DNA of 64,000 nt, from assembly GCF_006546625.1 (NCBI RefSeq), contig NZ_VIAR01000001.1:62001-126000 (forward strand), given 5' to 3'. Below, piece after piece: positions 3,071 to 61,814 of this stretch (positions within the stretch are counted from its first letter, which is position 1; the number at the start of each line of letters is the position of its first letter). The translations under genes and the position numbers were made by a program. Source of the stretch: Haloflavibacter putidus. Lineage in GTDB: Bacteria > Bacteroidota > Bacteroidia > Flavobacteriales > Flavobacteriaceae. The notes beneath the pieces were generated by a model. It worked only from the letters and a program-made list of their open reading frames with translations, was not told the DNA's origin and ran no database searches.

Positions 3071-3110
3071 CTTTACGGAAGTTTTAAGACAGATCTCTAC
3101 TTCCGTAAAG
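3071..3110. repeat. Inverted pair of the TTCCGTAAAG decamer
   Basis: CTTTACGGAAG at 3071-3081 and CTTCCGTAAAG at 3100-3110 are perfect 11-bp inverted repeats separated by 18 bases. This is the only place in the window where two exact copies of the decamer face each other. Confidence 0.9.
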
Positions 3111-3268
3111 ATTTAATTTTTACAGAAAAACTGATTTTTCATCGGGATGGTATCGAGAATAGGTTTTTGAACCAAATTAGAAATTCTTCGTACAAAATTT
3201 AAATAAAAAAAGAGCAAACCATACAGCTTGCCCAAATACATTTATAGCACAACAGTTTTTTAATTCTG

Positions 3269-3556
3269 TTATAGTTTTTCATTCAAATCTTGTCTACCGA
3301 CAATTGCCATTATTTCAACAATATTTTCATTTATTTTATAGTAAATGCTATCAACTCCGCATACACAAGGTCTATATCCTTTTTTAATATAATCAACTGA
3401 TTCGAATGAAAAAGGACGTTGTGTAATAATATCAAAATATTCAAAAAAAGATTCGAAATATTTATCGGCTTGAGTCTTTCCTAATTTTTTAATTCCGTAG
3501 TGGTGAACCCGAATCAAGTCATTTTTTGCTTCGTTACTTAATTTATATTTAGCCAT
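3269..3556 (-). CDS. ParE/RelE-superfamily toxin
   Basis: A 95-residue toxin of the ParE type: the N-terminal YKLSNEAKNDLIRVHHYGIKKLG helical region, the central YFDIITQRPFSFESVDYIKKGYRPC stretch and the C-terminal YYKINENIVEIMAIVGRQDL strands follow the family pattern. ParE toxins poison DNA gyrase, but members of this fold vary and the target is not proven here. Its start overlaps the end of the upstream antitoxin gene by 8 bases, the usual translationally coupled antitoxin-then-toxin order. Confidence 0.85.
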   Translation of the reverse strand: MAKYKLSNEAKNDLIRVHHYGIKKLGKTQADKYFESFFEYFDIITQRPFSFESVDYIKKGYRPCVCGVDSIYYKINENIVEIMAIVGRQDLNEKL

Positions 3557-3788
3557 TAAGCAACGACTTTGATTGGGCTAAAATACTCTCTTTACTGTCG
3601 TCCGTAAATCCGCTATTTTCAGCTTTTTCAAGTTTTGCTCTAATCCAGTCAATTTGCACTTGTTGTTTTCGAGCTTGTCTAATCAGGTCGTTAACTAATT
3701 CACTCTTGCTTGAATATTCTTTATTGTCCACTTGAGCTTTTAGCCACTCGTCATTCGGTTTTGTAAAGGATATACTTTGTCTAGGCAT
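3549..3788 (-). CDS. ParD-type antitoxin
   Basis: A 79-residue antitoxin. The N-terminus (RQSISFTKPNDEWLKAQVDNKEYSSKSELVNDLIRQARK) has the ribbon-helix-helix layout that would bind DNA. The C-terminal half (IDWIRAKLEKAENSGFTDDSKESILAQSK) is the part that normally wraps the toxin. It is the first gene of the pair and probably represses its own promoter through the palindrome at 3803-3818. The pair stands alone next to repeat-rich spacer, as mobile toxin-antitoxin cassettes often do. Confidence 0.85.
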   Translation of the reverse strand: MPRQSISFTKPNDEWLKAQVDNKEYSSKSELVNDLIRQARKQQVQIDWIRAKLEKAENSGFTDDSKESILAQSKSLLNG

Positions 3789-3802
3789 AATTTTATTTAT
3801 TT

Positions 3803-3818
3803 GATGTAAATTTACACC
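3803..3818 (-). promoter_or_regulatory. Palindromic operator candidate of the toxin-antitoxin pair
   Basis: TGTAAATTTACA (3805-3816) is a perfect 12-bp palindrome whose next-but-one flanking bases also pair (G3803 with C3818). It lies 17 bases upstream of the antitoxin start codon, where a ribbon-helix-helix repressor would be expected to bind. Binding is inferred. Confidence 0.55.
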
Positions 3819-4266
3819 AAAAATGAATCATTTTCAAATTGTTGACAACTACCTGGTAATAAGTATTTTAAATATACTAAAAATGTCAGTTTGAGCGCAA
3901 TCGAAAACTCTTTACCATTAGCAAACGGACTTCGGCTGCGCTATCATTGACGTAATCAAATAATTGCTTTTTCAGACTTTTAAAAAATTCACTCCCTTCC
4001 TTCTGGGAAGGGTTGGGGATGGGATGAAGGCTAAGATTGCTTCTCTCATCCTATCCCGATTCTTTGGAAATTCTCCGAAGGAAAGACTTTAAAACACTTT
4101 ATATGTCAATACGACCATTTGACATCTCAGGGCACAAGTTTAAATTTTTTGTACGGGGTCTCAATCTGACATACGGAACAAATATTCACTTAAAGTTAAG
4201 CAACTACTAACCTCTATACATTTTAAATGCTTTATAGAAAAATACTTCCGTAAACTTCTCTAAATT
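3819..4266. other. Gene-free spacer with interspersed repeat fragments
   Basis: No credible gene. It holds a remnant of the kind tcagtttgagcgcaatcgaaaa near 3887-3908 (given in part), a 7-bp hairpin (cccttcc 3994-4000, ggaaggg 4006-4012) followed by ttggggatgggatg, and one near-copy of the TTCCGTAAA motif near 4245. Such GC-richer fragments are common intergenic clutter in flavobacteria. Confidence 0.5.
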
Positions 4267-4773
4267 CTATTTTTTCTTTTTGTAAAGCGGTACAGAAGAG
4301 CAAGCCTCGCCAAACATCAAGCTTTTTACCACCGGTTGTAATTTTTGCACCGCTTGAACATAAGCATCTTCCGGAATTGGTTTATTGGCGCAACCTTTTA
4401 TAATCACCGGCAAATTTTTGTAAGCTTCTACATCTAGGTTTTCCAGCACATTTTGATAAATGCTTTTTTCTAAATCTTCTAGATTACCAAGAACAATTTT
4501 TTTGGCGTATGGTTGTAAATTCACGCTAATAAGCATATATGCCCATGCGGGAACAATAGCATCTGAGCTACAAGTTAAGGCTACAAACTGGTTTTTATAT
4601 TGTGCCCAATCGTGCTCTTTTACTGCTTTACGGAATTCTTTTTCGCGCAAAACAAAACCTTCGTAAAGCCAATCTTTTACATCAAACAAAAGTCTTTTCT
4701 CTGCTGGGTAATATTCTTCTAAATTAAAAGTGACCAATTTACTTTTGGCCACTCTATTTACAATTTCTTCCAT
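4267..4773 (-). CDS. DUF2480 family protein
   Basis: A 168-residue cytoplasmic protein of the DUF2480 family, which is found in Bacteroidota next to suf genes; its function is unknown. I chose the start at 4773 (MEEIVNRVAKSKLVTFNLEEYYP): a longer frame reaches 4803 but would overlap the upstream gene, whereas 4773 begins 10 bases after its stop codon. Cysteines occur in LTCSSDA, KGCANKP and GEACSSVP, which would suit a metal- or cluster-related role, but that is inference. It is the last gene of the suf operon. Confidence 0.8.
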   Translation of the reverse strand: MEEIVNRVAKSKLVTFNLEEYYPAEKRLLFDVKDWLYEGFVLREKEFRKAVKEHDWAQYKNQFVALTCSSDAIVPAWAYMLISVNLQPYAKKIVLGNLEDLEKSIYQNVLENLDVEAYKNLPVIIKGCANKPIPEDAYVQAVQKLQPVVKSLMFGEACSSVPLYKKKK

Positions 4774-4783
4774 AAAGTTATTT

Positions 4784-5107
4784 TTACAGCATTCCCAATT
4801 CAAATCGGGCTTCTTCGCTCATCAACTCTTGCGACCAAGGCGGGTCAAAGGTTAATTCTAATTCGCAATCTTTTACCTCATCTATAGATTTTACGCGCTC
4901 TTCTACTTCTTGCGGCATGCTTTCTGCCACCGGACAGTTTGGCGTAGTTAAGGTCATTAAAATTTTCACTTCTCTGTCTTCGTTTACAAATACATCGTAA
5001 ATTAATCCTAATTCGTAAATATCTACCGGAATTTCGGGGTCATAAATAGTTTTTAAAACCCGTACAATTTTTTCTCCCAGTTGGTTTGTATCTATAGTTT
5101 CTGCCAT
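4784..5107 (-). CDS. SufT-like MIP18/DUF59 family Fe-S assembly protein
   Basis: A 107-residue single-domain MIP18 (DUF59) protein. The family signature IYDPEIPVDIYELGLIYDVFV lies near the N-terminus and TTPNCPVAESMP carries the conserved cysteine that may hold a cluster intermediate; the tail has the typical FDPPWSQELMSEEAR segment. Relatives (SufT, CIA2/MIP18, PaaD) help mature or deliver Fe-S clusters. Position between sufE and DUF2480 fits a carrier or targeting role. The symbol sufT is commonly used for such genes but the exact role here is inferred. Confidence 0.85.
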   Translation of the reverse strand: MAETIDTNQLGEKIVRVLKTIYDPEIPVDIYELGLIYDVFVNEDREVKILMTLTTPNCPVAESMPQEVEERVKSIDEVKDCELELTFDPPWSQELMSEEARFELGML

Positions 5108-5119
5108 GACTTCTGTTGT

Positions 5120-5545: not shown

Positions 5546-5552
5546 AATTTAT

Positions 5553-5954: not shown

Positions 5955-7165
5955 GATAACATAATTTTAGCGCGTTTTACCGCATTTAAAAAAGTATCTA
6001 TTTCTTTCTTAGTATTATAAAAGGAAAACGAAGCCCTGATGGTACCCGGAATTTTGTAGAAGTCCATTATAGGCTGTGCACAATGATGTCCGGTTCTAAC
6101 GGCAATGCCCAATTTATCTACAATAGTACCAATATCGTACGGATGCAAATCTTCTATATTGAAGGAAATAACGGCAGTTTTCTTTTTGGAAGTTCCATAG
6201 ATTTTAAGACCATCTATTTCCAACAACTCTTTAGTTGCATACTGCAATAATTTGTCTTCGTATTCTGCAATTTTATCCATACCAAGGTCCAAAAGATAAT
6301 TAATTGCACATCCAAATGCAATCCCCCCGCAAATATTTGGTGTGCCGGCTTCAAATTTATGGGGAAGTCCGGCATAGCTTGTTTTTTCAAAGGTTACCTC
6401 TTCTATCATTTCGCCGCCGCCTTGGTAAGGTGGCAATTTATTTAACCATTTTTCTTTTCCGTAAAGCATACCTACTCCTGTAGGTCCATACATTTTATGA
6501 GCAGAAACTACATAAAAATCTACATCTAAAGCTTGCACATCTGCCTGAATATGCGGTGCAGCTTGTGCACCATCTACCAAAACAGCAGCGCCTACTTTAT
6601 GGGCTTGTTCTATTATTTCTTTTATTGGATTTATAGTTCCCAAAGCGTTAGAAACATGGTTTACAAAAACCAGTTTGGTTTTGTTAGATAATAAGGTATG
6701 AAAGCCATTCATATCTAACTCCCCCTCTTCAGTCATAGGAATTACCCGCAACTTAGCACCGGTTTTTTCGCAAAGCATTTGCCAAGGCACAATATTAGAA
6801 TGATGCTCTAAAGCAGAGACCATAATCTCGTCTCCTTCATTTATATGCGAAGCAAAACCACTGGCCACCAGATTTATGCCGTGCGTGGTGCCGGCGGTAA
6901 ATATGATTTCTTCTTTTTTGCCGGCATTAAAGAATTTTTGCAAAGCAATGCGCGCATCTTCATAAGCCTCTGTAGCTTCTTGCGATAAACTGTGTACGCC
7001 ACGATGAATGTTTGCATTGTAGTTTTGGTAATAATCTACAATGCAATCTATTACTTGTTTTGGCGTTTGCGAGGTTGCCGCATTATCAAAATATACTAAC
7101 GGATGACCGTTTACCTTACGTGAAAGTATTGGAAAATCTGCTCTTATTCTTTCTATATCCAACAT
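5951..7165 (-). CDS. sufS: Cysteine desulfurase SufS (group II)
   Basis: A 404-residue PLP enzyme that converts cysteine to alanine and leaves a persulfide for SufE. The PLP lysine is Lys224 in SAHKMYGPTGVG, the active cysteine is Cys362 in RTGHHCAQP, and FDNAATSQTP near residue 27 and NIHRGVHSLSQEAT near 52 are typical of group II enzymes. Length is normal for SufS. It lies between sufD and sufE in the operon. Confidence 0.96.
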   Translation of the reverse strand: MLDIERIRADFPILSRKVNGHPLVYFDNAATSQTPKQVIDCIVDYYQNYNANIHRGVHSLSQEATEAYEDARIALQKFFNAGKKEEIIFTAGTTHGINLVASGFASHINEGDEIMVSALEHHSNIVPWQMLCEKTGAKLRVIPMTEEGELDMNGFHTLLSNKTKLVFVNHVSNALGTINPIKEIIEQAHKVGAAVLVDGAQAAPHIQADVQALDVDFYVVSAHKMYGPTGVGMLYGKEKWLNKLPPYQGGGEMIEEVTFEKTSYAGLPHKFEAGTPNICGGIAFGCAINYLLDLGMDKIAEYEDKLLQYATKELLEIDGLKIYGTSKKKTAVISFNIEDLHPYDIGTIVDKLGIAVRTGHHCAQPIMDFYKIPGTIRASFSFYNTKKEIDTFLNAVKRAKIMLS

Positions 7166-7196
7166 GTAATCTGTTTAGAAAAACTTGAATTTTGAC

Positions 7197-8510
7197 TTAT
7201 AAGTCAAAACCCAATTTTACATTTAATTTATTGGCAATCAATTTGTTAATGCGCTTTTGTACTTCCGGAATCTTAACGCTGGAAAGCACGTTATTGGCAA
7301 AGGCGTACATTAACAAAGCTTGCGCTTCTTTTTGTGGTATACCACGTGATTTTAAATAAAACATCGCTTCTTCATCTAGCTGTCCAATTGTGCAACCGTG
7401 AGAACAAACCACATCGTCTGCAAAAATTTCTAATTGCGGTTTAGAGTTTATGGTAGCGTTATCGCTCACCAAAATATTGTTGTTACTCTGAAACGCATTT
7501 ATCTTTTGTGCAATTTTATCTACGTACACTTTTCCGTTAAAAACGCCAACCGATTTGTCGTCGTAAATACCTTTGTAGTCTTGATGACTTTCACAATTTG
7601 GTTGCGTGTGGTGCACCATCGTATTATGGTCTACGTGCTGTTTGTCTTCTATTATGGTTACGCCTTTTAGAATAGAATTGATGCGTTCTGCTTTTTGGAA
7701 AAAACTTAAATTGTTACGCGTTAATTTGCCGCCAAAAGAAAAAGTATGTACAGAACATACGCTTTGCTCTTTTTGCTCAAAAAACGTATTGTCTATCAAC
7801 GAGGCAGAAGCCGTATCGTTTTGTATTTTATAATAATCTACAATAGCATTTTTATTGGCAAATACCTCTGTAACAGAATTGGTTAACACCTCGTTATCTG
7901 TTAAACTTTGGTGACGCTCAATTATTTGCACTTGGGCGTTTTCTCCTACCACTACCAAATTTCTGGGCTGCAACATCAAGTTTGCTTCGTTACCGGTAGA
8001 AAAATTGATGATTTGTATAGGTTTATCTGAAACCGTGTTATCCGGAATATTTATAAAAGCACCTTCTTTAGAAAAAGCGGTGTTTAAAGAATTCAATCCG
8101 TCTTTTGGTGCAACTTTATCAAAATAAGCATCTATAATAGGCTTGAATTTTGGTCGGCTTAAAGCGGCAGACATCAAACAAGCATCTACTTTATCGTGTG
8201 TAGTTTCTGATAAATGGGACGAATAAATACCGTCTATAAAAACAATAGTATAGGTATCTATATCGTGAATAAAATATTTCTTTACGGAATTGTAATCTAT
8301 ATCGCTTTCTTTTTTAGGAAAAAGACTGTAATCTTTTTTCAGTAAAGACTTGAGCGAAGTATATTTCCAGGCTTCCTCTTTTTTGGAAGGAAAACCTTTT
8401 TCTTCAAAATTCTTAATAGCTTGGTTTCGTACTTTATGTACATCTGCATTTACATCTACACTTTCTTCAAAAGCGAAAAAAGAAGAAACCAATTTATCTT
8501 TTAAACTCAT
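7197..8510 (-). CDS. sufD: Fe-S cluster assembly protein SufD
   Basis: A 437-residue scaffold subunit of the SufBC2D complex. The N-terminal region (KNFEEKGFPSKKEEAWKYTSLKSLLKKDYSLF) and the C-terminal beta-helix with HHTQPNCESHQDYKGIYDDKSVGVFNGKVYV and CSHGCTIGQLDEEAMFYLKSRG (quoted in part) are typical of SufD. The late histidine in the SHGCT segment is a residue class implicated in cluster formation in SufD of other bacteria. A copy of the recurrent decamer CTTTACGGAA lies inside at 8280. Confidence 0.95.
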   Translation of the reverse strand: MSLKDKLVSSFFAFEESVDVNADVHKVRNQAIKNFEEKGFPSKKEEAWKYTSLKSLLKKDYSLFPKKESDIDYNSVKKYFIHDIDTYTIVFIDGIYSSHLSETTHDKVDACLMSAALSRPKFKPIIDAYFDKVAPKDGLNSLNTAFSKEGAFINIPDNTVSDKPIQIINFSTGNEANLMLQPRNLVVVGENAQVQIIERHQSLTDNEVLTNSVTEVFANKNAIVDYYKIQNDTASASLIDNTFFEQKEQSVCSVHTFSFGGKLTRNNLSFFQKAERINSILKGVTIIEDKQHVDHNTMVHHTQPNCESHQDYKGIYDDKSVGVFNGKVYVDKIAQKINAFQSNNNILVSDNATINSKPQLEIFADDVVCSHGCTIGQLDEEAMFYLKSRGIPQKEAQALLMYAFANNVLSSVKIPEVQKRINKLIANKLNVKLGFDL

Positions 8511-8544
8511 AGAATTATCTTTTAAAAATGAATAATACCCAGCT

Positions 8545-13412: not shown

Positions 13413-14435
13413 CTATTCCTCATTAAACTCTAAAATATCTTTAGAGTTAAAGCCTATATAAATAAAATCGGCAATATTAGAATCTTGCGTTATCACGCTA
13501 AGTTGCTCGCCCGATTCTAATTTTAACAAAAGCTGAATCGAGTCTCCAAGCACCACTTTTTTAATCACTTCTGCTTTGGTAATATAGTCGCATTCATCAA
13601 TACTTTTAGGGTCTGCGCCTTCTTGGGTTGGAAAAACTTTAAATTTTTCGTTGCGAATGGCGTGACAACAATTTTCGTTTAACGGACATTTAAAAGCCGA
13701 TTGTAGATTTTTATTGATTTGTACGGTATTTCCAAATAAGGAAGCCACGTATAAAGTGTTGGGTTTAACATACAAATTTGCTGCCGCATCTTTTTGGATG
13801 ACTTTTCCGTTTTGAAGAATCATAATTTCATCTGCAACCGAAAGTGCATCTTGCGTATCATGCGTGACAAATAAAACGGTAACGCCGGTTTTTTTGATTA
13901 TGTCAAAAACCTCATTTCGCAATTGCATACGTAACATAGCGTCAAGGTTACTGAAAGGTTCATCAAGAATTAACAACGAAGGTTTGGGCGCTAAAGCTCT
14001 CGCCAAGGCAACGCGTTGTTGTTGCCCGCCAGAAAGTTGATGCGGATAGCGTTTACCTAAATCGCTTAAACCAACCAAATCGAGCATTTCTTGCGCTCTT
14101 TTTTTCTTGTTTTTCAGCTTTGAAATTCCGTAAAGAATATTTTCTGAAATAGTAAGATGCGGAAAAAGAGCGTATTCTTGAAACACCAATCCGATTTTTC
14201 TTTTCTCCGGTTGCACAAATTTTTTAACCGAAGCAATTACTTTTCCGTTAAGGCTAATACTACCTTCATCCGGTCTTTCTAAACCGGCAATTAAACGCAC
14301 CAAAGTTGTTTTTCCACTACCGCTTTCGCCAACAATAGCACAAACGTCGCCTGCTTTTAGATGGATTGTAACATTGTCTAAAGCATTATTTTTGCCTTTG
14401 TCGTAACTCTTTGAAAGTGCCTCTATTGTTAGCAT
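13413..14435 (-). CDS. Iron(III) ABC transporter ATP-binding protein (FbpC-like)
   Basis: A 340-residue ABC ATPase: Walker A GESGSGKTT (about residues 37-45), Q-loop LVFQEYALFPHLTI, signature LSGGQQQRVALARAL, Walker B LLILDEPFSNLD, switch histidine in LFVTHD. After about residue 235 comes a C-terminal domain with LNENCCHAIR, resembling the regulatory tail of FbpC/FutC importers. It is the third gene of an iron ABC operon, 1 base from the permease gene. Substrate is inferred from the whole operon. Confidence 0.85.
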   Translation of the reverse strand: MLTIEALSKSYDKGKNNALDNVTIHLKAGDVCAIVGESGSGKTTLVRLIAGLERPDEGSISLNGKVIASVKKFVQPEKRKIGLVFQEYALFPHLTISENILYGISKLKNKKKRAQEMLDLVGLSDLGKRYPHQLSGGQQQRVALARALAPKPSLLILDEPFSNLDAMLRMQLRNEVFDIIKKTGVTVLFVTHDTQDALSVADEIMILQNGKVIQKDAAANLYVKPNTLYVASLFGNTVQINKNLQSAFKCPLNENCCHAIRNEKFKVFPTQEGADPKSIDECDYITKAEVIKKVVLGDSIQLLLKLESGEQLSVITQDSNIADFIYIGFNSKDILEFNEE

Positions 14436-14436
14436 T

Positions 14437-16101
14437 CTATTTATTAATCAGTAATTTGTTAAGAAAAATGACCGGAATCATTGCCGTAAATATAATGAAA
14501 AGTGATGGTATTGAAGCCTCCATTACCATTTCATCACTTGCGTACTCAAAAGCTTTAACCGCCAAAGTGTCTACGTGATAAGGTTTGAGAATTAAGGTAA
14601 GCGGTAATTCTTTTAAAACATCTATAAAAACCAAAATCACAGCACTAAATACGCCGGTCTTAATTAACGGAAATTCAATTTTTCTAAATGTTTTGAGATG
14701 GCCAACGCCTAAAACCTTTGAAGAATCCGGAATGGTTTCGCTCACTTTTAAAGCAGTTGAATCTATAGGATTGTAAGCTACAGCCAAAAATCGTACAGCA
14801 TACGCATAAAAAAGTGCGATTAAAGTTCCGTTGATTAGTAAGCCGGAATCTATGCCAAATTCGGCAAGCGTTTTGATGAGCCATTTATCAAATGCAAGGG
14901 TTGGCAACATAATACCAATGGCAATAACAGCGCCGGGAATTGCGTAACCCAAAACGCCAACCCTGGCGGTATTTTTAATAAAATGCAGAGCACTCCATTT
15001 GGAAAAATAAATCAGTAAAAGGGCAAATAAAACGGTAATTACTGCCGCCGAAATTGCAATACCAAAACTTTGAAGGGATAACAAGATAAAATCGAGGTCA
15101 AAAACCGTTGAGGCTGTAAGTGTTGCCCAGTATAAAAGTTGCGCAACAGGTAAAACAAATCCGAGAAAAACAGGTAGCAAAACCAACAAAAATATAAGCC
15201 ATTTCTTACCGCCGAAAGTTTGCCTGCGCTCTAATTGCGTGTTGTTTGTTTTTGCCGAATTAAACTTCATTTTACGGACTTGCCATTTTTCAAATAAAAT
15301 TAAAGCGAAAATTAGGACAACCAATATTGCAGATAGGTAAACTGCCGTTTGCGGTTCTTCTAATGAAAACCACGACCTGAAAATACCGGTTGTAAACGTA
15401 TTTACACCATAATATTTGGCAGCGCCATAATCGTTAAGAACTTCCATCAACACCAAAACCAAACCGGCAACAATGGCAGGTCTTGACAACGGAAGCATGA
15501 GTTTAAAAAAGCTTTTGGTTTCGCCAACGCCAAGCATTTTAGAAGCTTCCAAAAGGTTATTGGCTTGATTAAGGAAAAAAGCCCTTGCACTTACATAAAC
15601 GTAAGGAAATAAGGATATGCTTAACACAAAAGCAAGTCCGGCTTTGTTCATCACATCAATACGGATAAAATCAAGGTTTAATTCTCTTAATAGTAAAGCT
15701 AAACTGCCGCCATAGTCAAAAATGCCGGCATAAGCATAGCCCACAATATAAGATGGTATTGCTAATGGTAAGATGAGAAGCCACTCCATTTGTTTCCGTA
15801 AAGGAAAATTAAACCTTGAAACAAACCAAGCGGTTGAAACTCCAAAAATTAAAACAAGTATGCTACAAAAGAGAATAAGGTAGAGGGAATTTGCGATATA
15901 TTCTGGAAGTAAATATGTAAGAATATGATCCCAAGATTCGCCGGGACCTGCAAATAGCTCCACGCCAATAAAGAAAATAGGCAATGCTAAGAAAAGAACA
16001 ATGGCCAGTGTAAAGACCGACCATTTGTTTGTATCTCTTATAAACCTATTCAGCCTTGTAGATAAGGAGAACTTTTTTTTATTTCCAGCCTGCTTCATCA
16101 A
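14437..16101 (-). CDS. Iron(III) ABC transporter permease (FbpB-like, two fused permease domains)
   Basis: A 554-residue inner-membrane protein with about 12 hydrophobic helices and two binding-protein-dependent permease domains. The first carries LEASKMLGVGETKSFFKLMLPLSRP and the second LKVSETIPDSSKVLGVGHLKTF (given in part), both being the cytoplasmic EAA-type loops that dock on the ATPase. The tandem-domain layout is typical of FbpB/FutB iron importers. Its start overlaps the end of the binding-protein gene by 23 bases. Confidence 0.85.
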   Translation of the reverse strand: MMKQAGNKKKFSLSTRLNRFIRDTNKWSVFTLAIVLFLALPIFFIGVELFAGPGESWDHILTYLLPEYIANSLYLILFCSILVLIFGVSTAWFVSRFNFPLRKQMEWLLILPLAIPSYIVGYAYAGIFDYGGSLALLLRELNLDFIRIDVMNKAGLAFVLSISLFPYVYVSARAFFLNQANNLLEASKMLGVGETKSFFKLMLPLSRPAIVAGLVLVLMEVLNDYGAAKYYGVNTFTTGIFRSWFSLEEPQTAVYLSAILVVLIFALILFEKWQVRKMKFNSAKTNNTQLERRQTFGGKKWLIFLLVLLPVFLGFVLPVAQLLYWATLTASTVFDLDFILLSLQSFGIAISAAVITVLFALLLIYFSKWSALHFIKNTARVGVLGYAIPGAVIAIGIMLPTLAFDKWLIKTLAEFGIDSGLLINGTLIALFYAYAVRFLAVAYNPIDSTALKVSETIPDSSKVLGVGHLKTFRKIEFPLIKTGVFSAVILVFIDVLKELPLTLILKPYHVDTLAVKAFEYASDEMVMEASIPSLFIIFTAMIPVIFLNKLLINK

Positions 16102-17182: not shown

Positions 17183-17695
17183 AAAAATAAGCTATTTGTA
17201 AGCTAATTTTAACATTTATTAAGAAATAGCTTTACGGAAATTAATTGAAAAAGAAGGATATAAAAAGATCGCTTCACACCATCGAAATACTTTTGGCGAT
17301 ACTTTTTCAATTCTATGATTAAAGGATACTCCATAGTTACCCCATAGATAAGCCATAGATAGTTCATTAAACCCTCATAAAAACTAAAAAGAACTTTTGG
17401 CGTTATTTTATAATTTGAATTTGATATTGTTAAACACTATTGTCCGGTTAAAGATGCAAGACCTATTCGCTATATAAAATTGTAATATCTGTTTTTTATA
17501 AAAACAAACGCTAACTATGGCTATAATCTCAATATTTTCTGCATCTGTCGTTATAGCACTACTATAACCTTTACATAACCTTTGCATAAGCTTTGCATAA
17601 GCTTTTGATACAGATTAAACCCATTTTGTTTAAACACAACAATGGCTCTTGATCCCCGCTTACCGCATAAAGCTTACAGCATATTGCTTATGATT
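17183..17695. other. Gene-free spacer upstream of the iron operon
   Basis: AT-rich sequence without a recognisable gene. It holds one exact CTTTACGGAA decamer at 17230 and short direct repeats (ttgcataagctttgcataagc region, 17581-17601). Confidence 0.4.
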
Positions 17696-24587: not shown

Positions 24588-24805
24588 AATTTATTTTTCT
24601 GAAGGTTTTGGGCAATAAATGTAACCAATCTCTTGGCTTCAAAAAAGTTAATTTATCCATAATGAGAGAAAAGCAAATTCCAAAAAAAATGCGGTTTTTT
24701 GGGTCTGTCACTATAATTTTCACTTACCGTGATTGGTAATCTTAATAATTTGTCAACTTCCGTAAAGCTATTTTAGAAGTTCTATTTACATTGCTATTTT
24801 TGGCG

Positions 24806-26638: not shown

Positions 26639-27352
26639 TTACATTTTTAGATAAAAGGCTTTTACCAAATCTTTATATTCCTGCGTGTATTGGTGGCGCT
26701 CTTTTTCTATAACCAATTGGGTTTTTTCAAGAGCAACTTCCGTAAAGCTAAACTGCAACAAATTGCGTTTTACAGGAGTGTCTGCATTGCCTTGCACCAA
26801 GGTTATTTTTTGAAGGTATAAACCTGCCTCTTTGGCTAATTGCAAAACTTCTTCTTGATTTTTATGCGGAATAATCAAAGAGAAATTTCCCTTTTCGGAA
26901 AGTAATTTAGCAACGTTTTTTATAAGCTCACTAAAGGGTAAAGCTTCCGTAAAACGGGCAGTGTTTCTTGTAGCTTCCACGGAAGTAAAATCTTCGTCAT
27001 AAAACGGCGGATTGCTAACAATCAAATCGTAGCTCTCGTCTATTTCTTCTGTAAACTCTTCTAAACTGGCGTGGTAACAAAACAACCTATCGTTCCACGG
27101 GCTGTTTTCAAAATTTTCTACGCATTGTTCGTAAGCGTTTTCTTCTATTTCTATGGCATCTATAAGTTCTGCTTGACTGCGTTGTGCCATTTGCAAAGCA
27201 ATTACGCCCGTGCCGGCGCCAATATCTAGAATAGAAAATGTGTTTTTAGGAATTGTAGTCCAAGCTCCCAACAAAACACCATCGGTGCCAATTTGCATTG
27301 CACATTTGTCTTGCTCTACGCTAAATTCTTTAAATCTAAAAGGTTTGGACAT
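26639..27352 (-). CDS. tRNA1(Val) A37 N6-methyltransferase (TrmN6/YfiC family)
   Basis: A 237-residue SAM-dependent methyltransferase. MQIGTDGVLLGAW near residue 20, motif I ILDIGAGTGVIALQMA near 42 and the catalytic NPPF in DLIVSNPPFYDEDF near 130 are those of the TrmN6 family, which methylates A37 of tRNA1(Val). The protein is monocistronic. The decamer TTCCGTAAAG lies inside it at 26738, and a near-copy (TTCCGTAAAA) at about 26945. Confidence 0.85.
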   Translation of the reverse strand: MSKPFRFKEFSVEQDKCAMQIGTDGVLLGAWTTIPKNTFSILDIGAGTGVIALQMAQRSQAELIDAIEIEENAYEQCVENFENSPWNDRLFCYHASLEEFTEEIDESYDLIVSNPPFYDEDFTSVEATRNTARFTEALPFSELIKNVAKLLSEKGNFSLIIPHKNQEEVLQLAKEAGLYLQKITLVQGNADTPVKRNLLQFSFTEVALEKTQLVIEKERHQYTQEYKDLVKAFYLKM

Positions 27353-28563: not shown

Positions 28564-28611
28564 AATTAAATTAAATTTTAGGGTGCTCGACCCCGATTAT
28601 TAATAAGGCTG

Positions 28612-29809: not shown

Positions 29810-29860
29810 TTTCCGTAAAGAAAACATTCTACTTTTAAGACTAAAATGAATTAAGCAATT

Positions 29861-29933: not shown

Positions 29934-31739
29934 ATGCAAACCCCTAGTCCGCATAGTTTTCACATCCCGGTAATGGGCATTGCTTACACCATAGACTCTC
30001 CTGTTAAAGTAGCGCATTTCGGAATTAATTCTGCAGTTTCTGTTATAGAAGATAACTTAGTAGAGTTAATGCGGAAATATTATTATCAAAAAGAAGGGCA
30101 AACTTATACGCCAATTGGGCCAAAAGAAAAAGAATTTCGTTCGCGCCGGGTTACAGATTACTTAAACTTAATGCAAGATTTGGTACAGTCTAATTTAGAG
30201 AAACTCAAGCGCTCTACTTTTGAGACCGGCTCAGATTTACGCAAATATTTTGAGATGCTTCCCGAAGAATCTAAGCTTTATCAAAAATTTAAAGATTGGC
30301 GGGCAGAAGCAGGTGTTGCTTTAGAAAATAGCTTTACGGAAGAATTACGCGATGCGGTTGTGCCAGGCGCTATCGAGGTAAATATAATGACCAAAGTAGA
30401 TAAAGATAATTTTGATAAAAAAGGAGAAATTATAGAAAATGGTTCCGATGCTTTAACTGCTCTAAAGGGGTATGCAGAGAGCAATTTGCAAAATTCTTCT
30501 TTGGTGCTTTCTGCGGGGATGAACCCGCGTTTGTTTAATTATATGGAAGGCTTTTCTGCCTTTGATGCGCAAAGCTGGGGGAATTTTCGTAAACGTGTGG
30601 TTATAAAAGTAAGCGATTACCGTTCTGCACTTATACAAGGAAAATATCTGGCCAAAAAAGGAATTTGGGTAAGCGAGTTTCGTATAGAATCTGGTCTTAA
30701 TTGTGGCGGCCACGTTTTTGCTACGCAAGGCTTGCTAATGGGACCAATTTTAGAAGAATTTAAAGAGAATAAAGAAAACCTGAAAACAAGCTTATTCGAG
30801 CTTTACAATCCGGCCTTAATTGCCAAAGGAAAAACCGGTTTTTCTAAGCCGCACCCTATTAAAATTACTGTGCAAGGCGGTATTGGCACACACGAAGAAG
30901 ATAAATTATTACGAAAATATTACCAAGTAGATGGCACCGGCTGGGGAACGCCATTTTTATTGTGTCCGGAAGCTACCAATGTAGATAAAACGACCTTAAA
31001 CCAGTTGCAAGAAGCCAAAGAAAAGGATGTATTTTGCAGTAAAGCCTCTCCCTTAGGCGTAGGTTTTAATTATTTAAAAAACACGAGCGCAGAAAAAGAA
31101 CGTTTAGAGCGTATAGAAAACGGAAAACCCGGAAGTCCGTGTACCGAAAAATTATTGGTTTCTAACACAGAGTTTACAGACAAACCCATTTGCACGGCTT
31201 CGCACAAATACCAAAAATTAAAATTACAACAACTGGAAGAAGCCAACTTGCCGGAAAAAGAATTAAAACAACAAAAAGTAGATGTTTTGGCAAAAGAATG
31301 TCTTTGTGTCGGTTTAAGTAATTCGGCGGCGTTAAATTACCAAGTTCCCTTTCTCAAAAAGCAAAAGGCGGTAACCATTTGCCCGGGACCAAATATTGCC
31401 AATTTTTCAAAACTTAGCAGTTTACAAGAAATGACAGACCATATTTATGGTCGTAGAGCTTTGGCAGTAAAACCTGACCGACCATCTATGTTTATAACCG
31501 AACTGCGTTTGTATATAGATTTTCTTACCAAAGAAATTAAAACAGTGGCGCAACCTACGCGTAGAGAGTTTAAAAAGTGGGAAAAGTTTATAAATAATTT
31601 ATTGGAGGGGGTAAAACATTATGAAACCCTTAATTCTGGAAATAAAATTACAGAGAAGCTCCAATTTAAAGAAGATTTGTTAGCGTGTAAAACTTCGATA
31701 GTAAGTTTAAAAGCACATTTGCTTCCGCAAGCGAGTTAA
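29934..31739 (+). CDS. Uncharacterised 601-residue cysteine-rich protein, possible TIM-barrel enzyme
   Basis: A soluble protein with no signal peptide. It opens with HIPVMGIAYTIDSPVKVAHFG, recognisable as a conserved but unnamed bacterial family. In the middle, VQGGIGTHEEDKLLRKYYQVDG and GWGTPFLLCPEATNVD recall the phosphate-binding end of FMN-dependent TIM barrels of the nitronate monooxygenase type; this is inference. Cysteines recur in likely functional contexts: GLNCGGH, FLLCPEA, DVFCSKASPLGVGF, KPICTASHKYQ, ECLCVGLSN, TICPGPN. A helical tail follows. It is monocistronic behind a palindromic operator and before a strong terminator. Confidence 0.6.
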   Translation: MQTPSPHSFHIPVMGIAYTIDSPVKVAHFGINSAVSVIEDNLVELMRKYYYQKEGQTYTPIGPKEKEFRSRRVTDYLNLMQDLVQSNLEKLKRSTFETGSDLRKYFEMLPEESKLYQKFKDWRAEAGVALENSFTEELRDAVVPGAIEVNIMTKVDKDNFDKKGEIIENGSDALTALKGYAESNLQNSSLVLSAGMNPRLFNYMEGFSAFDAQSWGNFRKRVVIKVSDYRSALIQGKYLAKKGIWVSEFRIESGLNCGGHVFATQGLLMGPILEEFKENKENLKTSLFELYNPALIAKGKTGFSKPHPIKITVQGGIGTHEEDKLLRKYYQVDGTGWGTPFLLCPEATNVDKTTLNQLQEAKEKDVFCSKASPLGVGFNYLKNTSAEKERLERIENGKPGSPCTEKLLVSNTEFTDKPICTASHKYQKLKLQQLEEANLPEKELKQQKVDVLAKECLCVGLSNSAALNYQVPFLKKQKAVTICPGPNIANFSKLSSLQEMTDHIYGRRALAVKPDRPSMFITELRLYIDFLTKEIKTVAQPTRREFKKWEKFINNLLEGVKHYETLNSGNKITEKLQFKEDLLACKTSIVSLKAHLLPQAS

Positions 31740-31820: not shown

Positions 31821-31846
31821 ACGGAATTAAAAATCATTCCGTAAAG
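31818..31846. repeat. Second inverted pair of the TTCCGTAAA motif
   Basis: tttacggaat (31818-31827) and attccgtaaa (31836-31845) are perfect 10-bp inverted repeats with an 8-base spacer; the right arm is an exact TTCCGTAAAG. It directly follows the T tract of a terminator. Confidence 0.85.
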
Positions 31847-32551: not shown

Positions 32552-35500
32552 TTATTTGATTATAAATCGTTTTATAACACGCTTATCGTCTTGTATAAGT
32601 TCTACAAAATAAGTTCCGTTGCTCAACTTACCAGGGTTTACGTGTAGTTTGCCATTAGAAAAACTTTTTTGAGAGCTATAGATCAATCTTCCAAATAAAT
32701 CCCAAACATCAATTTTCACTTCTTGATCTTTCCATAAAGAAGAGGTCAGGTAAAAGCCTTTTTCAGAACTGGTAGGGTTTGGAAAGAGTTCCAAATTATT
32801 TGCTATAAAACTACCATCTGTAGATAAAGTTTCGTCTTCAAAACGTAAATAAAATCTATCTACGGCTATACTTGCATTATTATCAAGCTGTACGTCAAAA
32901 CCAATGGTGTTTTCTCCTGCGTTTAAAAGTGTTTCTTCTTCCGTAAAGGAATCTACGAGATAGGCTGTAGTATTCTCGCCCAAATTAGCTGTCGTAACCA
33001 CTAACATATAAGCTTGGTGCTCGTAATTATTGGTAAACAAAGCAATCTGCTCTCCATCTAACGGAGCTTCCCTGCGCTCTACACTATATACAGAGTCTGC
33101 ACTACCAATACCTATATTTTCTGAAAAATTAAATGGCTTTACCGCATCATGGTTATTCAAAGCATTATCGTATCCCGGCGCAAACAAGATGGCAAAACTA
33201 TCGTGCAACTTTCCGCCAGAATTATAATTTTCTGCTGTAAAAAGCTGTCCTGTAATGTGAGCATTGTTTTCTACCAGGTTTTCCGGTCTAAATGTACTGG
33301 TATGCTGTCCGGCGGTTTTATCTGTTTCGGAAAACAAAACAGACGTAGCTCCATTTGCAGCTGTTGCAACTTGTACCGCTTGTCCCGGTTGTATAAACTG
33401 ATTCGCATCTGAGCCGGAACTATTTCCACCGGTGCTTAAATCTACTGTTACATAAGAACCATAAGTACCTAAAGTTGGATCGTACACATACACATAATTT
33501 GCATTTAAGTTTTGCGAATTTGCAAGTACACTGGTAACATCTACAGCACTTTGATACGGGTTCGCCAACAAGTTAAACTCGCCAGCTACATTACTTAAGT
33601 TGAAAGTTTGTAGCTTATCTCCAATAAATAAATCTCCCGTAGTTCGTAAAACCGTGGTATCTGCAATTGCTGCATTATTGGTTAAATCTACCGCACGACT
33701 ACCGCGAACAAATAATAAATAGCCTTCTCCCGCGGTAATGTTTGTATTATCTGTATTAGGAACAGCTACAAATTGCTGATCTATCGCATCTAAAGTAAAC
33801 ATAGACGGATTTCCTGTTAACGTTGCATCAAACCCATTGGTTTGGTCTGTAGTGGTTCCGGTAATATGGGTTCCGTAATGCGGATTAGGATTATCTGTAT
33901 TACTGGTTGCCCCTTCTTGCCAATTGGCGTGAATAGGCTGTGAGCTGGTTACTGCACTACTTACAAAACGATAAGAACGGTTTGCGCTCATATATCTTTC
34001 TATTGTAAACTCTCCTGTAATAACTGATGTAGAAGGAACTGCAGCCAACTCTCCGTTTTTATTTTCGGAACTTTTAAATATAAAGTTTCCGTTGTTGGTA
34101 ATATTGCCGTTTATAGTTAATACCTGTTCTACGTTTAAAGTTGCACCACTGTTTACGATAATATCGTTTACTTCTATATTGGTGGTAAGGCTGGCGGTGC
34201 CTTCCATTATTGTAATATTATCGGCGGGTGTAAAGTTGAGATCTATGTTAGGATTGCCCGGCGTCCAACCATCGGTATCATTTAGGTAAACATAACCATC
34301 TTGTCCGCAGGCATCTAATACAGCCCCGGTAGGAATGGTTAAATTACAGCTGTTTTCTTCCGTAAAGGAAACCGTATAATTTACCGGTCCGGCTGTAAAA
34401 TCTATATCAAAACTTTGCGGACTTCCGGTGATTGGGTAATCTGTTCCGTTTACGGTAATTGAACCTTGTGTGGGTTCGTTTTCGTAAGCTACTACCAAAT
34501 TTGTAGAGTAAACTCCAGTATTGAGACCACATTCTGATCCAATTTCAAAACTTACTGCCGACAAACTACAAGATGGTGGCGTACAAGCGCTATCTTCTTC
34601 TATTATTCCTGTGGCAAAGGCTTGCTTTCCGGCGGCATCTACCACAGTTACACTATAAGTTCCGGCTGGCGCATCTAAGACTTCTCCCGTCGTGCCATTA
34701 CTCCAATTATACGTATAAGGTGCGGTTCCGTTACTTGCGCTGGCAGTTAAACTGCCCAAATATTGTTCTTCACAGGCAGGTGTTGCTGCCACAGAAACTG
34801 TAAAACTATTTAATTGAGCAGTGGCAAAATTATCATTATAATCAAATTCTAATTCAGACGTGTTAATAATTTCTGCTACTATAATTGTTGGACTTTGCTG
34901 AACATTCCACGGAAGTGAAACCGCTTGATTAGCACCACTGGCCAAACTAACCGGTTTAGTGGCAATTGCCAAGGTGTCTCCGGCAGTAGAAACATAGGAA
35001 AACAATACATCTGCATTTACATCAATCTCGCCATTGTTTTCAATAAGCGCTTCAATGTTAATGGTTTCGCCTACATTGGGAATTTCGTTAGAAACATAAA
35101 AATCATCGAAAAACAAGTTTGCTGCTTCCCCAACAATAAATGATCGGGTGGCCTCATTGTTACTTCTGTTAGCATCATTAACTTCCAGATTAGAATCTAT
35201 TATAGCACGAATAACATGCAGGCCTATTTCTTCTGAAGAATAGGAAACCGGCACCGCAATCGTATTGGTCGTATTTTTAATAAGACCCGAAACATTTTGC
35301 ACAACCGCATGCTCTTGGTTGTCTATTAATATAGTAAGATCCATCTCATCGTTAATATTGGAATAGCCGATGTTTTCGTAAGAAATATCTAAGAATATAG
35401 ATTCGCCGGGATCAGGATTAAGCAAAGTAGGATTGATATATTCTGACAAGATTCGCATGTCTGGCTTGTTGGCAACAGTCACTTCTTTGATTAATACATT

Positions 35501-42913: not shown

Positions 42914-43254
42914 AATATAGCGTATTTGTGAACCAACAAAAAATAGTTTTTTGTGTATTTCTAAAAAACACGCTTCATCTCGATACGAGCAATGCACTTT
43001 AGTAACCTTAAAGAATTAGAAGAAATTAAAAAAGTATTTTAACCACACCTCTATTTATGAAACTTTTCAAAAAATACACTATTTGTTATTAATTTGATAA
43101 AACAAAATGGTTTTATACACAAATATCATAAAAATAGAGCCAAGTTTTAAGTATACTGTATACTCTGCATAAAATACTTTGTAAATGGTAAGTTTTTAAG
43201 GATAATCGGTAAATATCTTTACGGAAGGTTTAGTTGCATAATGAACCGAGGGAA

Positions 43255-49241: not shown

Positions 49242-49757
49242 ATGAAAGCACTTACAACTTTACGGAAATTAATCAACCTGATTTACATTTTAAGTTTTAT
49301 TCTTTTTATTGCATTTTTTATAGGCCTGCTAGCTGTACTGTTTTTTGATATAAGCAGTGCAGACATTATAAACAATGAAAAGCTATTAACTTTTAGTAAA
49401 ATAGAACTTGGCATTTGGGGTTTCATGATTTTACTTTTATACGGCGGCTATCTATTTACGCTGTATATTTTTAAAAATTTGGTGTATAACTTAAAGCCTA
49501 AAAATCTCTTTACGGAATTGCAAATTGCTTATCTATTGCGCATAGGAAGATTAATAATTGGTTTAACCTTGGCAGAAATTGCTTTCAAATTTCTTTTCGA
49601 ATTACTTTACGAACAGGAAATAAATATTAGTTTTCAAACCGAAAGTTTGTTTCAAAGCACTTTATTTACCCTTAGTATTGGATTTTTCTTTATCTTTTTA
49701 TCCGGCTTATTTAAAGTAGCAAGAAACCTAAAACAAGAAAATCAGTTAACTATTTAG
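49242..49757 (+). CDS. DUF2975 family membrane protein
   Basis: A 171-residue protein with four membrane helices (LIYILSFILFIAFFIGLLAVLFF in part, LGIWGFMILLLYGGYLFTLYIF in part, IIGLTLAEIAFKFLFELLY, STLFTLSIGFFFIFLSGLF) and the typical loop LKPKNLFTELQIAYLLRIG. DUF2975 proteins are commonly encoded with a small Cro/CI-type regulator, as here; the pair is thought to sense envelope or membrane state, but function is unknown. Two copies of the CTTTACGGAA decamer lie inside (49258, 49508). The next gene starts one base after its stop. Confidence 0.85.
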   Translation: MKALTTLRKLINLIYILSFILFIAFFIGLLAVLFFDISSADIINNEKLLTFSKIELGIWGFMILLLYGGYLFTLYIFKNLVYNLKPKNLFTELQIAYLLRIGRLIIGLTLAEIAFKFLFELLYEQEINISFQTESLFQSTLFTLSIGFFFIFLSGLFKVARNLKQENQLTI

Positions 49758-50497: not shown

Positions 50498-50570
50498 GAA
50501 TTTTCCGTAAAGAAAATTTAGGGAAACAACTTTAAATTCCGCGTAAGCGAAAACAAAAAAGTTATGCATA

Positions 50571-56883: not shown

Positions 56884-56901
56884 CACGACTTAAAACAAAA
56901 T

Positions 56902-57759: not shown

Positions 57760-57781
57760 TATAAACTTGAATAAAATTCTT

Positions 57782-58129: not shown

Positions 58130-58136
58130 AACCGAC

Positions 58137-59105: not shown

Positions 59106-59141
59106 ATATTTTAATTACTTTTCGCTTCAAACCAATTTATA

Positions 59142-60284
59142 ATGAAAAATATTATAATACTGGTTTTCTTGTTCTCTTTTTTAACAGGAAAATCACAAGT
59201 GGAGTATAAGATGATTAGCTCTACCATTCTGGAAGCAGAAAGGGAAGTTAAAATTCAACTGCCACGTAATTATAAAAAAAATACCCATAAATCTTATCCT
59301 GTTTTTGTGGTTTTAGATGGCGATTATCTTTTTGAGCCGGTCGCAGGAAATGTTGATTATTACAGTTATTGGGGAGAAATGCCCGAAGCAATTGTAGTTG
59401 GTGTAAACCAAATATCTACCCGAAAAGCAGATACAAAATTAGATAAAGAGAATTTTTTTCCATCTAAATCTGGTGCAGATTTTTTTGAGTTTTTGGGTAT
59501 GGAATTATTACCGCTAATAGACCAAACATACAGAACCGTTCCTTTTTCTATTATTGTAGGGCATAACATTACCGCCAATCTAATGAATTACTATTTACTC
59601 AAACCAAAACCCTTATTTAAAGCCTATATAAATCTTAGTCCAGACTATGCCCCCGGTATGCAAGACCAAGTTTACAACGCTCTAGCAGATACCGAACAGA
59701 AAACTTGGTATTATTTGGCAACGGCAGCGGGAGATATTGAAACCTTACGCGAACAAAACCAAGCTATGAATGCTAAATTAGAGAAAATTAGCAACCCGTT
59801 ATTACATTATTATTTTAATGATTTTGAAGAAGGCACGCATTATTCTCTAGTAGGCGAAGCTATTCCGTTGGCACTTAAAAACTTTTTCTCCATCTACAAA
59901 CCCATAGGCGAAAAAGAGTACAAAAAACTTATTGATAAGGAAGAAGATTATATAGATTTCCTTACGGAAAAATACGAAAGTATTGAAGAGCTTTACGAGC
60001 TAGATATTAATATTAGAACAGAAGATTTTATGACCATTGCCAAGGCTATAGAAGAAAAGGAAAAGTTTGAGCAATACAACGATTTGGCAAAATTGGCAGA
60101 AGAACATCACCCAAAAACCATGTTAGCCAACTATTTTTATGGCAGATTCTACGAAGAAATAGGAAGACTAAGACGCGCTATAAAAGAGTATGAAAAAGCC
60201 TATGCAAAAGAAAGTGTTTCGTATATTACAGTCGATTTGGTTTTAGACAAATCAGAAGAATTAAAAATAAAAAGAGACCAATAA
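59142..60284 (+). CDS. Esterase-like alpha/beta-hydrolase-fold protein lacking the nucleophile serine
   Basis: A 380-residue exported protein (signal peptide ending around FLTGKSQ). Residues 20-270 resemble the esterase D/enterochelin-esterase fold: SYPVFVVLDGDYLF, PEAIVVGVNQISTR, ELLPLIDQTYRT. The nucleophile elbow expected as GHSxGG reads VGHNITANLMNYYL, with Asn at the serine position, so hydrolase activity is doubtful. A TPR-like helical tail (YFYGRFYEEIGRLRRAIKEY) follows. It is co-directional with the pan genes and ends 1 base before radA. Confidence 0.75.
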   Translation: MKNIIILVFLFSFLTGKSQVEYKMISSTILEAEREVKIQLPRNYKKNTHKSYPVFVVLDGDYLFEPVAGNVDYYSYWGEMPEAIVVGVNQISTRKADTKLDKENFFPSKSGADFFEFLGMELLPLIDQTYRTVPFSIIVGHNITANLMNYYLLKPKPLFKAYINLSPDYAPGMQDQVYNALADTEQKTWYYLATAAGDIETLREQNQAMNAKLEKISNPLLHYYFNDFEEGTHYSLVGEAIPLALKNFFSIYKPIGEKEYKKLIDKEEDYIDFLTEKYESIEELYELDINIRTEDFMTIAKAIEEKEKFEQYNDLAKLAEEHHPKTMLANYFYGRFYEEIGRLRRAIKEYEKAYAKESVSYITVDLVLDKSEELKIKRDQ

Positions 60285-60285
60285 T

Positions 60286-61647
60286 ATGGCCAAAACCAAA
60301 ACCACATTTTTTTGTCAAAATTGTGGCGCACAACACGCAAAATGGCAAGGCCAATGTACTTCTTGCCGCCAATGGAACACCTTAGTAGAAGAAGTTGTTC
60401 AAAAAAAAGAGAATAAAGACTGGAAAACAAATCAAGCATCTCCCAAACGCATAGCAAAACCAACCTTGGTAAACGCAATTACCTATGAGCGTGAAGAAAG
60501 ATTAAACACCAATAACCAAGAATTAAACCGCGTTTTAGGTGGCGGTTTGGTTCCCGGCTCGCTAACTTTGTTAGGCGGTGAACCCGGAATAGGAAAAAGT
60601 ACTTTGCTTTTACAAATTTCCTTAAATTTAAATTACAAAACCTTATATGTTTCTGGAGAAGAAAGTCAGCAGCAAATAAAAATGCGTGCCGAGCGTGTAA
60701 ATGCCAATCCGGCCAATTGCTACATTCTAACCGAAACCAAAACCCAAAATATTTTTAAACAAATAGAAGCTTTAGAGCCGGAAGTTTTAATTGTAGACTC
60801 TATTCAAACTTTGCACAGCGATTTTATAGAAAGCTCTCCCGGTAGCATTTCGCAAATACGCGAATGTACCTCAGAACTTATAAAATTTGCAAAAGAAACC
60901 CATACGCCGGTTTTACTCATTGGCCATATTAATAAAGAAGGCAGTATTGCCGGACCAAAAGTTTTAGAACATATGGTAGACACGGTTTTGCAATTTGAAG
61001 GAGACCGTAACCACGTCTATAGAATTTTACGTGCCCACAAAAACCGTTTTGGCTCTACGCACGAGTTGGGTATTTATGAAATGCAAGGCGAAGGCTTGCG
61101 CGAAGTTAGCAATCCGTCTGAAATTTTAATCTCTAAAAACGGAACAAGCTTAAGCGGAACTGCCATTGCTTCTACTTTAGAGGGAATGCGGCCGTTAATG
61201 ATAGAAATTCAAGCCTTGGTTAGCTCTGCCGTTTACGGAACCCCACAACGCTCTACCACAGGTTATAATGTAAAACGCCTCAATATGTTATTAGCCGTTT
61301 TAGAAAAAAGAGCCGGGTTTAGATTAGGAGCAAAAGATGTTTTTCTAAATATTACCGGCGGCATTCAAGTAGACGACCCGGCGATAGATTTGGCAGTAAT
61401 AGCCGCTATTTTATCTTCTAATGAAGATATTGCCATAGAACACGATATATGTTTTGCTGCCGAAATTGGATTGGCAGGAGAAATACGACCCGTACCAAAA
61501 ATAGAACAACGCATAAGCGAAGCAGAAAAATTAGGCTTTGCGAGAATTATGGTTTCCAAACAAAGCAAATTGCCCTCTACACAATTTAGCATACAGATTG
61601 TTAAAGTGAGCAAAGTAGAAGAAGTAGTAGAACACTTATTCGGGTAA
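60286..61647 (+). CDS. radA: DNA repair protein RadA
   Basis: A 453-residue RecA-like ATPase that helps process recombination intermediates. A C4 zinc finger opens it (Cys10, Cys13, Cys24, Cys27), Walker A GGEPGIGKST lies near residue 96, the RadA-specific KNRFG motif is in AHKNRFGSTHELG, and a Lon-like C-terminal domain follows (GYNVKRLNMLLAVLEKRAGF, DVFLNITGGIQVDDPAIDLA). Length is normal. Confidence 0.96.
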   Translation: MAKTKTTFFCQNCGAQHAKWQGQCTSCRQWNTLVEEVVQKKENKDWKTNQASPKRIAKPTLVNAITYEREERLNTNNQELNRVLGGGLVPGSLTLLGGEPGIGKSTLLLQISLNLNYKTLYVSGEESQQQIKMRAERVNANPANCYILTETKTQNIFKQIEALEPEVLIVDSIQTLHSDFIESSPGSISQIRECTSELIKFAKETHTPVLLIGHINKEGSIAGPKVLEHMVDTVLQFEGDRNHVYRILRAHKNRFGSTHELGIYEMQGEGLREVSNPSEILISKNGTSLSGTAIASTLEGMRPLMIEIQALVSSAVYGTPQRSTTGYNVKRLNMLLAVLEKRAGFRLGAKDVFLNITGGIQVDDPAIDLAVIAAILSSNEDIAIEHDICFAAEIGLAGEIRPVPKIEQRISEAEKLGFARIMVSKQSKLPSTQFSIQIVKVSKVEEVVEHLFG

Positions 61648-61814
61648 AACTTTACGGAAAAAATAGATGCCCGAAACTTGAAAGCTAAATTATTTTTTAG
61701 TGAATCTATTATCTAAATTCGTAACATTGACGCGCTGGCGATCGTCTCCGACGAGTGCTCAACCTACAAATTTTTTATCATCTTTCACTAACTTTCGCTC
61801 TTGTAATAATTTTT

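Follow-up and report, generated by a model that had tools for sequence, protein, structure and literature searches.

The known DNA uptake sequence (DUS) and uptake signal sequence (USS) systems use type IV pili. DUS are placed without strand preference, both within and between genes, and USS are flanked by A/T-rich DNA. Two papers describe Neisseriaceae and Pasteurellaceae as the sole families in which uptake words are known (PMC12616744, PMC3630211). According to the same papers, the DUS of Neisseriaceae is a word of 10–12 bases with many copies per genome and dialects among relatives (PMC3630211), and the USS of Pasteurellaceae has an enriched 9-mer core, present at 31–913 copies per Mb, and two dialects, Hin- and Apl- (PMC12616744). 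Here we describe a decamer, TTCCGTAAAG, that is scattered through a stretch of 64,000 nucleotides of the Haloflavibacter putidus genome (Bacteroidota, Flavobacteriaceae; contig NZ_VIAR01000001.1, positions 62,001 to 126,000), hereafter the window. The genome under study (G000; 2,923,547 bases, 53 contigs) was compared with the other genomes of its genus (G001–G015; 16 genus genomes including G000), among them its sister genome G005. By analogy with the two known systems, we propose that the word is probably an uptake-sequence-like self tag for natural transformation.

The window holds 20 exact copies of TTCCGTAAAG, 11 forward and 9 reverse. The original prediction had located 19 of these, all correctly, and had overlooked the copy at 6457. 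Its estimate that chance predicts well under one copy agrees with 100 dinucleotide shuffles of the window (mean 0.20, maximum 1), and the word is over-represented in the window relative to a Markov model as well. The whole genome contains 746 copies, 370 forward and 376 reverse, compared to 8 copies (4 + 4) of the reversed word, which served as control. Genome-wide, then, the word is about 90 times as frequent as its control, rather than near expectation. This corresponds to 255 copies per Mb, or one copy per 3.9 kb. The word is not palindromic and its two orientations are equally common, in line with the lack of strand bias reported earlier for the window. TTCCGTAAAG is the top 10-mer both in 464 kb of G000 (106 copies, 4.8 expected under an order-4 Markov model) and in 120 kb of G005 (36 copies, 1.2 expected under the same type of model). 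Near-copies differing at the last base, previously described as numerous, do show a modest enrichment in the 464 kb (15, 13 and 7 copies, versus 6.7, 2.6 and 3.9 expected). However, the last base is not distinguished in this respect, as the enrichment of single variants at word positions 1, 4, 5, 6 and 7 is at least as great (11, 12, 12, 16 and 11 copies, versus 1.0–2.7 expected).

A rough gene caller places 68 of the 106 copies within genes and 38 in intergenic DNA, which makes up 14% of bases; the word is therefore 2.5-fold enriched between genes. In the window, 10 of the 20 copies are intergenic by the same caller, close to the nine of 19 that had been called non-coding. Genic copies occupy all five frames that create no stop. 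A synonymous-codon shuffle predicts 1.7 genic copies, far below the 68 observed. There is an antisense excess among genic copies (47 to 21), and the synonymous-codon null leans in the same direction. Together with the fourfold-degenerate sites described below, the synonymous shuffle rules out codon use or protein conservation as the cause of the word; the original prediction had also dismissed protein conservation.

Copies of the word are conserved between G000 and its sister genome, base for base. In an alignment of 186 kb from G000 contig C11 to 200 kb from G005 (166,866 bases aligned, 89.2% identical), 59 of 60 copies aligned fully and 54 of those 59 were identical at all ten bases. Perfect identity was seen for 38% of all aligned background 10-mers and for 35% of anagrams of the word (3,246 cases), and TTCCGTAAAG was the most significantly conserved 10-mer (54/59, p 1.6e-17). 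In the reverse comparison, 60 of the 65 copies in the G005 piece aligned with G000, 54 of them identically. Per-base identity was 0.95–1.00 across the ten positions of the word and about 0.86 in the flanks; conservation is confined to exactly ten bases. At fourfold-degenerate positions, 71 of 74 bases were identical inside the word, compared to 67.4% outside, and the corresponding values for intergenic bases were 177 of 179 and 88.4%. The constraint therefore acts on the DNA word itself.

TTCCGTAAAG is abundant in four of the 16 genus genomes (746 copies in G000, 804 in G005, 263 in G015 and 255 in G003). It is weakly raised in five others (69–70 copies each in G001, G006 and G012, 27 in G007 and 18 in G008), and in the remaining seven it is found at the level of the control, with 4–17 copies. 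Outside the genus, the word is near background in the rest of the order, represented by 83 genomes of further genera and families, where the largest count was 46 (control, 20). The same holds for 1.75 Mb of sequence from 80 named loci of Flavobacteriaceae or Bacteroidota (4 copies, 7 of the control). On a DnaE tree, the four word-rich genomes form two separate pairs, G000 with G005 and G003 with G015, and G002, G004, G010, G011, G013 and G014 form one word-free clade. By DnaE identity, the nearest named entries in the comparison are Salegentibacter (79%) and Christiangramia (78%); Psychroflexus salarius groups with the genus, on a long branch, in a 35-row tree.

Related words are found in the same genomes. 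In 280 kb of G003, a TTCCGNNAAG family is enriched, with 34 copies ending in TA, 21 in TT, 16 in AT, 9 in TC, 8 in AA and 7 in CC (0.3–1.3 expected for each). A second pattern, TTCCGCGNAAGC, is enriched in nine of the 16 genus genomes, with 153 copies in G000, 163 in G005, 266 in G003, 245 in G015, 121 in G007, 63–67 in each of G001, G006 and G012, and 20 in G008, palindromic copies being counted on both strands. The other seven have 0–7 copies, and its reversed control occurs 0–2 times per genus genome. Like TTCCGTAAAG, this pattern is independent of coding (15 genic copies in G000, 0.17 in the null). It rarely follows a G (1 of 91 copies in five genomes) and is A/T-rich on its 3' side. Six of eight copies aligned with G005 are identical and seven of the eight still match the pattern. 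Beyond the genus, the distribution of TTCCGCGNAAGC is patchy: by hand count, 24 of 247 sampled genomes of the family have at least 20 copies, the largest number being 103, and the control never exceeds 6. These genomes, for example G137, G221, G243 and G262, carry their 20–103 copies at lower density. An 80-kb sample of G137, which has 103 copies genome-wide, held neither a copy (about 2 expected) nor a dominant word, and the same was true of a 20-kb sample of G221. From the common TTCCG...AAG frame and the flank preferences, we infer that TTCCGTAAAG and the related words are dialects of one reader.

No other dominant word of comparable density was found in samples of 56–120 kb from the word-poor genomes G002, G004, G008, G013 and G014. 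G002 (loci L215, L216 and L243–L246) contains small word families with counts of 5–10, including CGCCGTAAAG (5 copies in 120 kb, 0.12 expected), which has CCGTAAAG in common with the main word and may represent either a repeat or a further dialect. Other enriched 10–12-mers, such as AAGTCAAGAC and GAACTAAAAAAA, were seen in 100 kb of G009 (L081–L085) and are perhaps a local repeat; enriched words in the G012 sample have a similar local-repeat appearance.

We favour, with moderate confidence, the reading that TTCCGTAAAG works as an uptake-like self tag. A competent cell would preferentially take up, or recombine in, DNA bearing the word during natural transformation, and this bias would swap damaged copies for intact ones. 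With such biased replacement, copies would accumulate and stay letter-perfect, in genes as well as between them. Recognition of the word would take place at the outer membrane and would involve no type IV pilus. An uptake-like role had been suggested from the window alone, and it is still the best reading, helped by the dialects in relatives and by transformation genes of the flavobacterial kind; what does not fit is the lack of a T2SSE/PilB-family ATPase over the family cut-off.

In Riemerella anatipestifer, a transposon screen identified eight genes essential for transformation, namely comEC, dprA, comF, recA and genes for a CarboxypepD_reg-type outer-membrane protein, its DUF5689/DUF5017 neighbour, an HhH protein and a DUF1343 protein (PMC8459023). 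The same study names RA0C_RS04915/RS04920 as essential for transformation (PMC8459023), and a further study reports that mutations in tonB reduce it (PMC8383284). Of the two competence genes that the original prediction had suggested looking for, comEC and dprA, each is single and open in G000, and both proteins are found in all 16 genus genomes. G000 also encodes a ComEA-like protein of 296 amino acids with two HhH motifs. A gene pair at L302:1780-5945, with orthologues across the 16 genomes (L271–L286), encodes an outer-membrane barrel protein (929 amino acids; CarboxypepD_reg and a sub-threshold Plug domain) and a lipoprotein (448 amino acids; DUF5689, DUF5017 and choice-of-anchor J). These domains are those of RA0C_RS04915/RS04920. 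The lipoprotein also has a full-length match to the NCBIfam M949_1556 model, which scores below the cut-off of that model (331 of 475 bits). A DUF5689-like match of 577 amino acids near comEC was rejected as a Riemerella-type pair, as it carries a type IX secretion system sorting domain and hmmscan did not confirm DUF5689.

The two proteins of the pair give the same two-type split across the 16 genomes. The DnaE alignment rejects this split as a clade (approximately unbiased test, p 3.9e-5), in a grouping that was named after the trees had been seen. Because these deep types conflict with the DnaE tree, the cassette has probably been exchanged between lineages. A wider proposal is more tentative, and we consider it somewhat less likely than not: Flavobacteriaceae may have an uptake-word system of their own, with TTCCGTAAAG and TTCCGCGNAAGC as dialects, which would work at the outer membrane and need no type IV pilus. 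The candidate reader in such a system would be the barrel-lipoprotein pair, whose exchange between lineages runs counter to the DnaE tree.

Several observations weigh against an uptake role or against this choice of reader. No type II/IV secretion ATPase of the T2SSE/PilB family, the only part of the pilus machinery searched for, scored over the family cut-off in G000 or G005; four of the 16 genus genomes have one. Since the pilus feature, as judged by this ATPase, was not found, we liken the word to DUS and USS in its working and do not class it as a classical one. ComEC, DprA, the HhH proteins and the pair are present in 16 of 16 genus genomes, including six without the word, and the presence of the word can therefore be explained by none of these genes. 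Type A of the pair is found in all four word-rich genomes and also in the word-poor G004, G002 and G009, and the link between receptor type and word is consequently a lead and no proof; the independent contrasts are too few for the correlation to reach significance. With a net charge of −46 in G000 and of −46 to −73 across the 16 genomes, the lipoprotein is too strongly acidic to resemble a typical DNA binder, and this speaks against simple DNA binding. Between G003 and G015 (31 kb aligned, 80% identical) only three copies of TTCCGTAAAG align and one of the three is identical; of the aligned TTCCGNNAAG sites, 7 of 12 are identical, compared to 14.6% of all 10-mers.

Close inverted pairs, which could serve as terminators, are also few in G000 and G005. 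They are common among the uptake words of Neisseria and Haemophilus. In 546 kb of G000 there are 7 neighbouring pairs less than 150 bp apart, and random spacing would give about 5; four of the 7 are of the CTTTACGGAA..TTCCGTAAAG kind, three of these with spacers of 18–29 bp. The figures for 320 kb of G005 are 5 pairs and about 4.5 expected. With close pairs near the random expectation, a terminator role is at most a minor use of the word.

Of the alternatives to an uptake tag, the one that survives best is a binding site for a chromosome-organising or other abundant DNA-binding protein, unlinked to transformation. We consider it unlikely. Genome-wide scatter, conservation and intergenic enrichment would all suit such a protein. 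However, its site would be non-palindromic, equally frequent in both orientations, present in genes in every allowed frame and yet at background in much of the genus, and uptake dialects would be the more natural setting for a word that changes from one close relative to another.

Less probable again is a Chi-like site, a word read by an AddAB-type enzyme in break repair and stimulating recombination. TTCCGTAAAG resembles the Chi sites of RecBCD and AddAB in being a short, frequent, non-palindromic and scattered word, its spacing is similar to that of Chi in E. coli, and selection at the DNA level would give the conservation seen here. Proteins with a PDDEXK_1 nuclease domain are present in 16 of 16 genus genomes. 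G000 has two, of 1,059 and 938 amino acids and separated by about 5 kb, an arrangement expected of addA and addB; their size and neighbourhood make them candidates for these genes. Chi sites are known with lengths of 5–8 bases, whereas this word has ten. A Chi site would also be common to species with the same enzyme. Provided that the PDDEXK_1 proteins represent AddAB, this does not hold here: every genome of the genus has the nuclease family, yet seven have the word at background and five show it only weakly raised, so that it varies within one genus. Relative to GC skew, copies on the G-rich and C-rich strands number 40:66 in G000, 21:15 in G005 and 8:26 in G003 (intergenic copies, 16:22, 11:4 and 1:3). 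There is thus no consistent strand bias, and the antisense bias of genic copies is predicted by the codon null itself. A strong bias toward the terminus had been named as a mark of Chi or of FtsK-orienting polar sequences (KOPS); judged against GC skew, the bias is mild and its direction differs among the three genomes, and by this measure we found no strong strand skew of the KOPS/FtsK type in them. We regard uptake as more likely than a role as a Chi-like site or another kind of binding site.

It is very improbable that the word is the recognition site of a DNA modification, restriction or other defence system. Such a system could conceivably read a fixed, non-palindromic 10-mer, but genomes usually avoid sites of this type or are neutral towards them, whereas the present word is enriched about 90-fold and kept letter-perfect. 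Origin from a decayed family of short mobile repeats, for which only the high copy number speaks, is already contradicted, as none of the 30 positions flanking the 106 copies on each side has a strongly shared base and conservation stops at the tenth base. The long common flanks that would betray such a family, as raised in the original prediction, are thus lacking. The flanks show weak trends only, mainly A-richness at +2 to +5 and a scarcity of G directly before the word (3 of 106 copies), with a slight excess of G ten bases upstream.

Nor do regions without the word appear to correspond to mobile islands. The longest desert in the sampled stretches lies on G000 contig C4 (39.6–75.3 kb; L046–L048), where 35 kb lack any TTCCGTAAAG. 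The six proteins examined there belong to genes for elongation factor G, ribosomal protein L2, secY, rpoA, carbamoyl-phosphate synthase and citrate synthase, and strongly constrained genes may exclude the word. Of four proteins examined in a desert on contig C2, three have ordinary enzyme domains and one has none. This housekeeping and enzyme content speaks against the island explanation. DNA of the contig C11 piece that does not align with G005 has 1 copy in 19,134 bases, compared to 59 in the 166,866 aligned bases; the longest desert, with its ribosomal protein genes, is no island.

Within the window, 18 of the 19 copies aligned with G005 are identical. The copies at 3071..3080 (−) and 3101..3110 (+) form the left and right arms of an inverted pair; the left arm is identical in G005, and the right arm is the sole site of the 60 without a full alignment. 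Identical copies on the forward strand are found at 6457..6466, 14126..14135, 15794..15803, 24758..24767 (upstream of the DNA polymerase III alpha gene), 29811..29820, 31837..31846, 32939..32948 and 34358..34367. The last two lie in a single open reading frame of 3,481 amino acids (32552-42997, −). On the reverse strand, identical copies are located at 4626..4635, 8280..8289 (within a SufBD-family gene, 7197-8510), 30332..30341, 43217..43226, 49258..49267 and 49508..49517. The copy at 17230..17239 (−) differs by 2 bases in G005, and the copy at 26738..26747 (+) is missing at the aligned place in G001, G002, G008 and G014. The forward copy at 50503..50512, identical in G005, stands 24 bases before a sister word, TTCCGCGTAAGC (50537..50548, +), which follows the TTCCGCGNAAGC pattern and is likewise identical. 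Finally, the copy at 61650..61659 (−) lies just past the 3' end of a presumably RadA-like gene, so named from its domains; it is identical in the longer alignment with G005 and shows one mismatch in a shorter one, which stopped there. Some 12-mers of the window, such as CAACTCATCAAC, form a small over-represented family around CTCATCAAC, with 4–7 counts. Two RNA features were also seen, a Flavo-1 RNA at 61810-61887 (+; RF01705, 57 bits), which belongs to a small RNA family without known function, and an S16-Flavobacteria ribosomal protein leader at 28570-28604 (−; RF03138).

In the open-access papers that our search brought up, we found no report of TTCCGTAAAG as an uptake sequence, subscription papers and preprints being outside the search. 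If the wider proposal is true, Flavobacteriaceae would be a third bacterial family that takes up self DNA by means of a sequence tag, and the first one not belonging to Proteobacteria. A third case in another phylum, apparently without a pilus motor, would show that the evolution of tagged uptake need not depend on the pilus. Such a case would also give the largely uncharacterised transformation machinery of flavobacteria a specific substrate and an assay, and genetic work on environmental flavobacteria would gain a tag.

With the transformation machinery of R. anatipestifer, G000 has in common ComEC and DprA, an HhH protein, and a pair of barrel protein and lipoprotein with matching domains. 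Riemerella has no established uptake word. R. columbina prefers its own DNA, a preference measured without a known word, and the k-mers tabulated in that study are A/T-only or nearly so (PMC7965970). The differences from the classical systems lie in lineage and machinery. Neisseriaceae read their DUS with the minor pilin ComP. The present genome belongs to the phylum Bacteroidota, and the search for a pilus motor ATPase gave none; Pasteurellaceae likewise differ in family and machinery, and the A-rich flank seen here is short and weak. The likenesses concern the word itself. As in the DUS of Neisseriaceae, its length falls within 10–12 bases, it has many copies per genome and relatives have dialects; as in the Pasteurellaceae USS, it is an enriched word with dialects at a comparable density, its 255 copies per Mb falling within the range given for USS (PMC12616744). 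A long, fixed, non-palindromic and strand-neutral word that is present everywhere and letter-perfect, and that has related words in relatives, is the pattern that uptake bias yields in Neisseriaceae and Pasteurellaceae.

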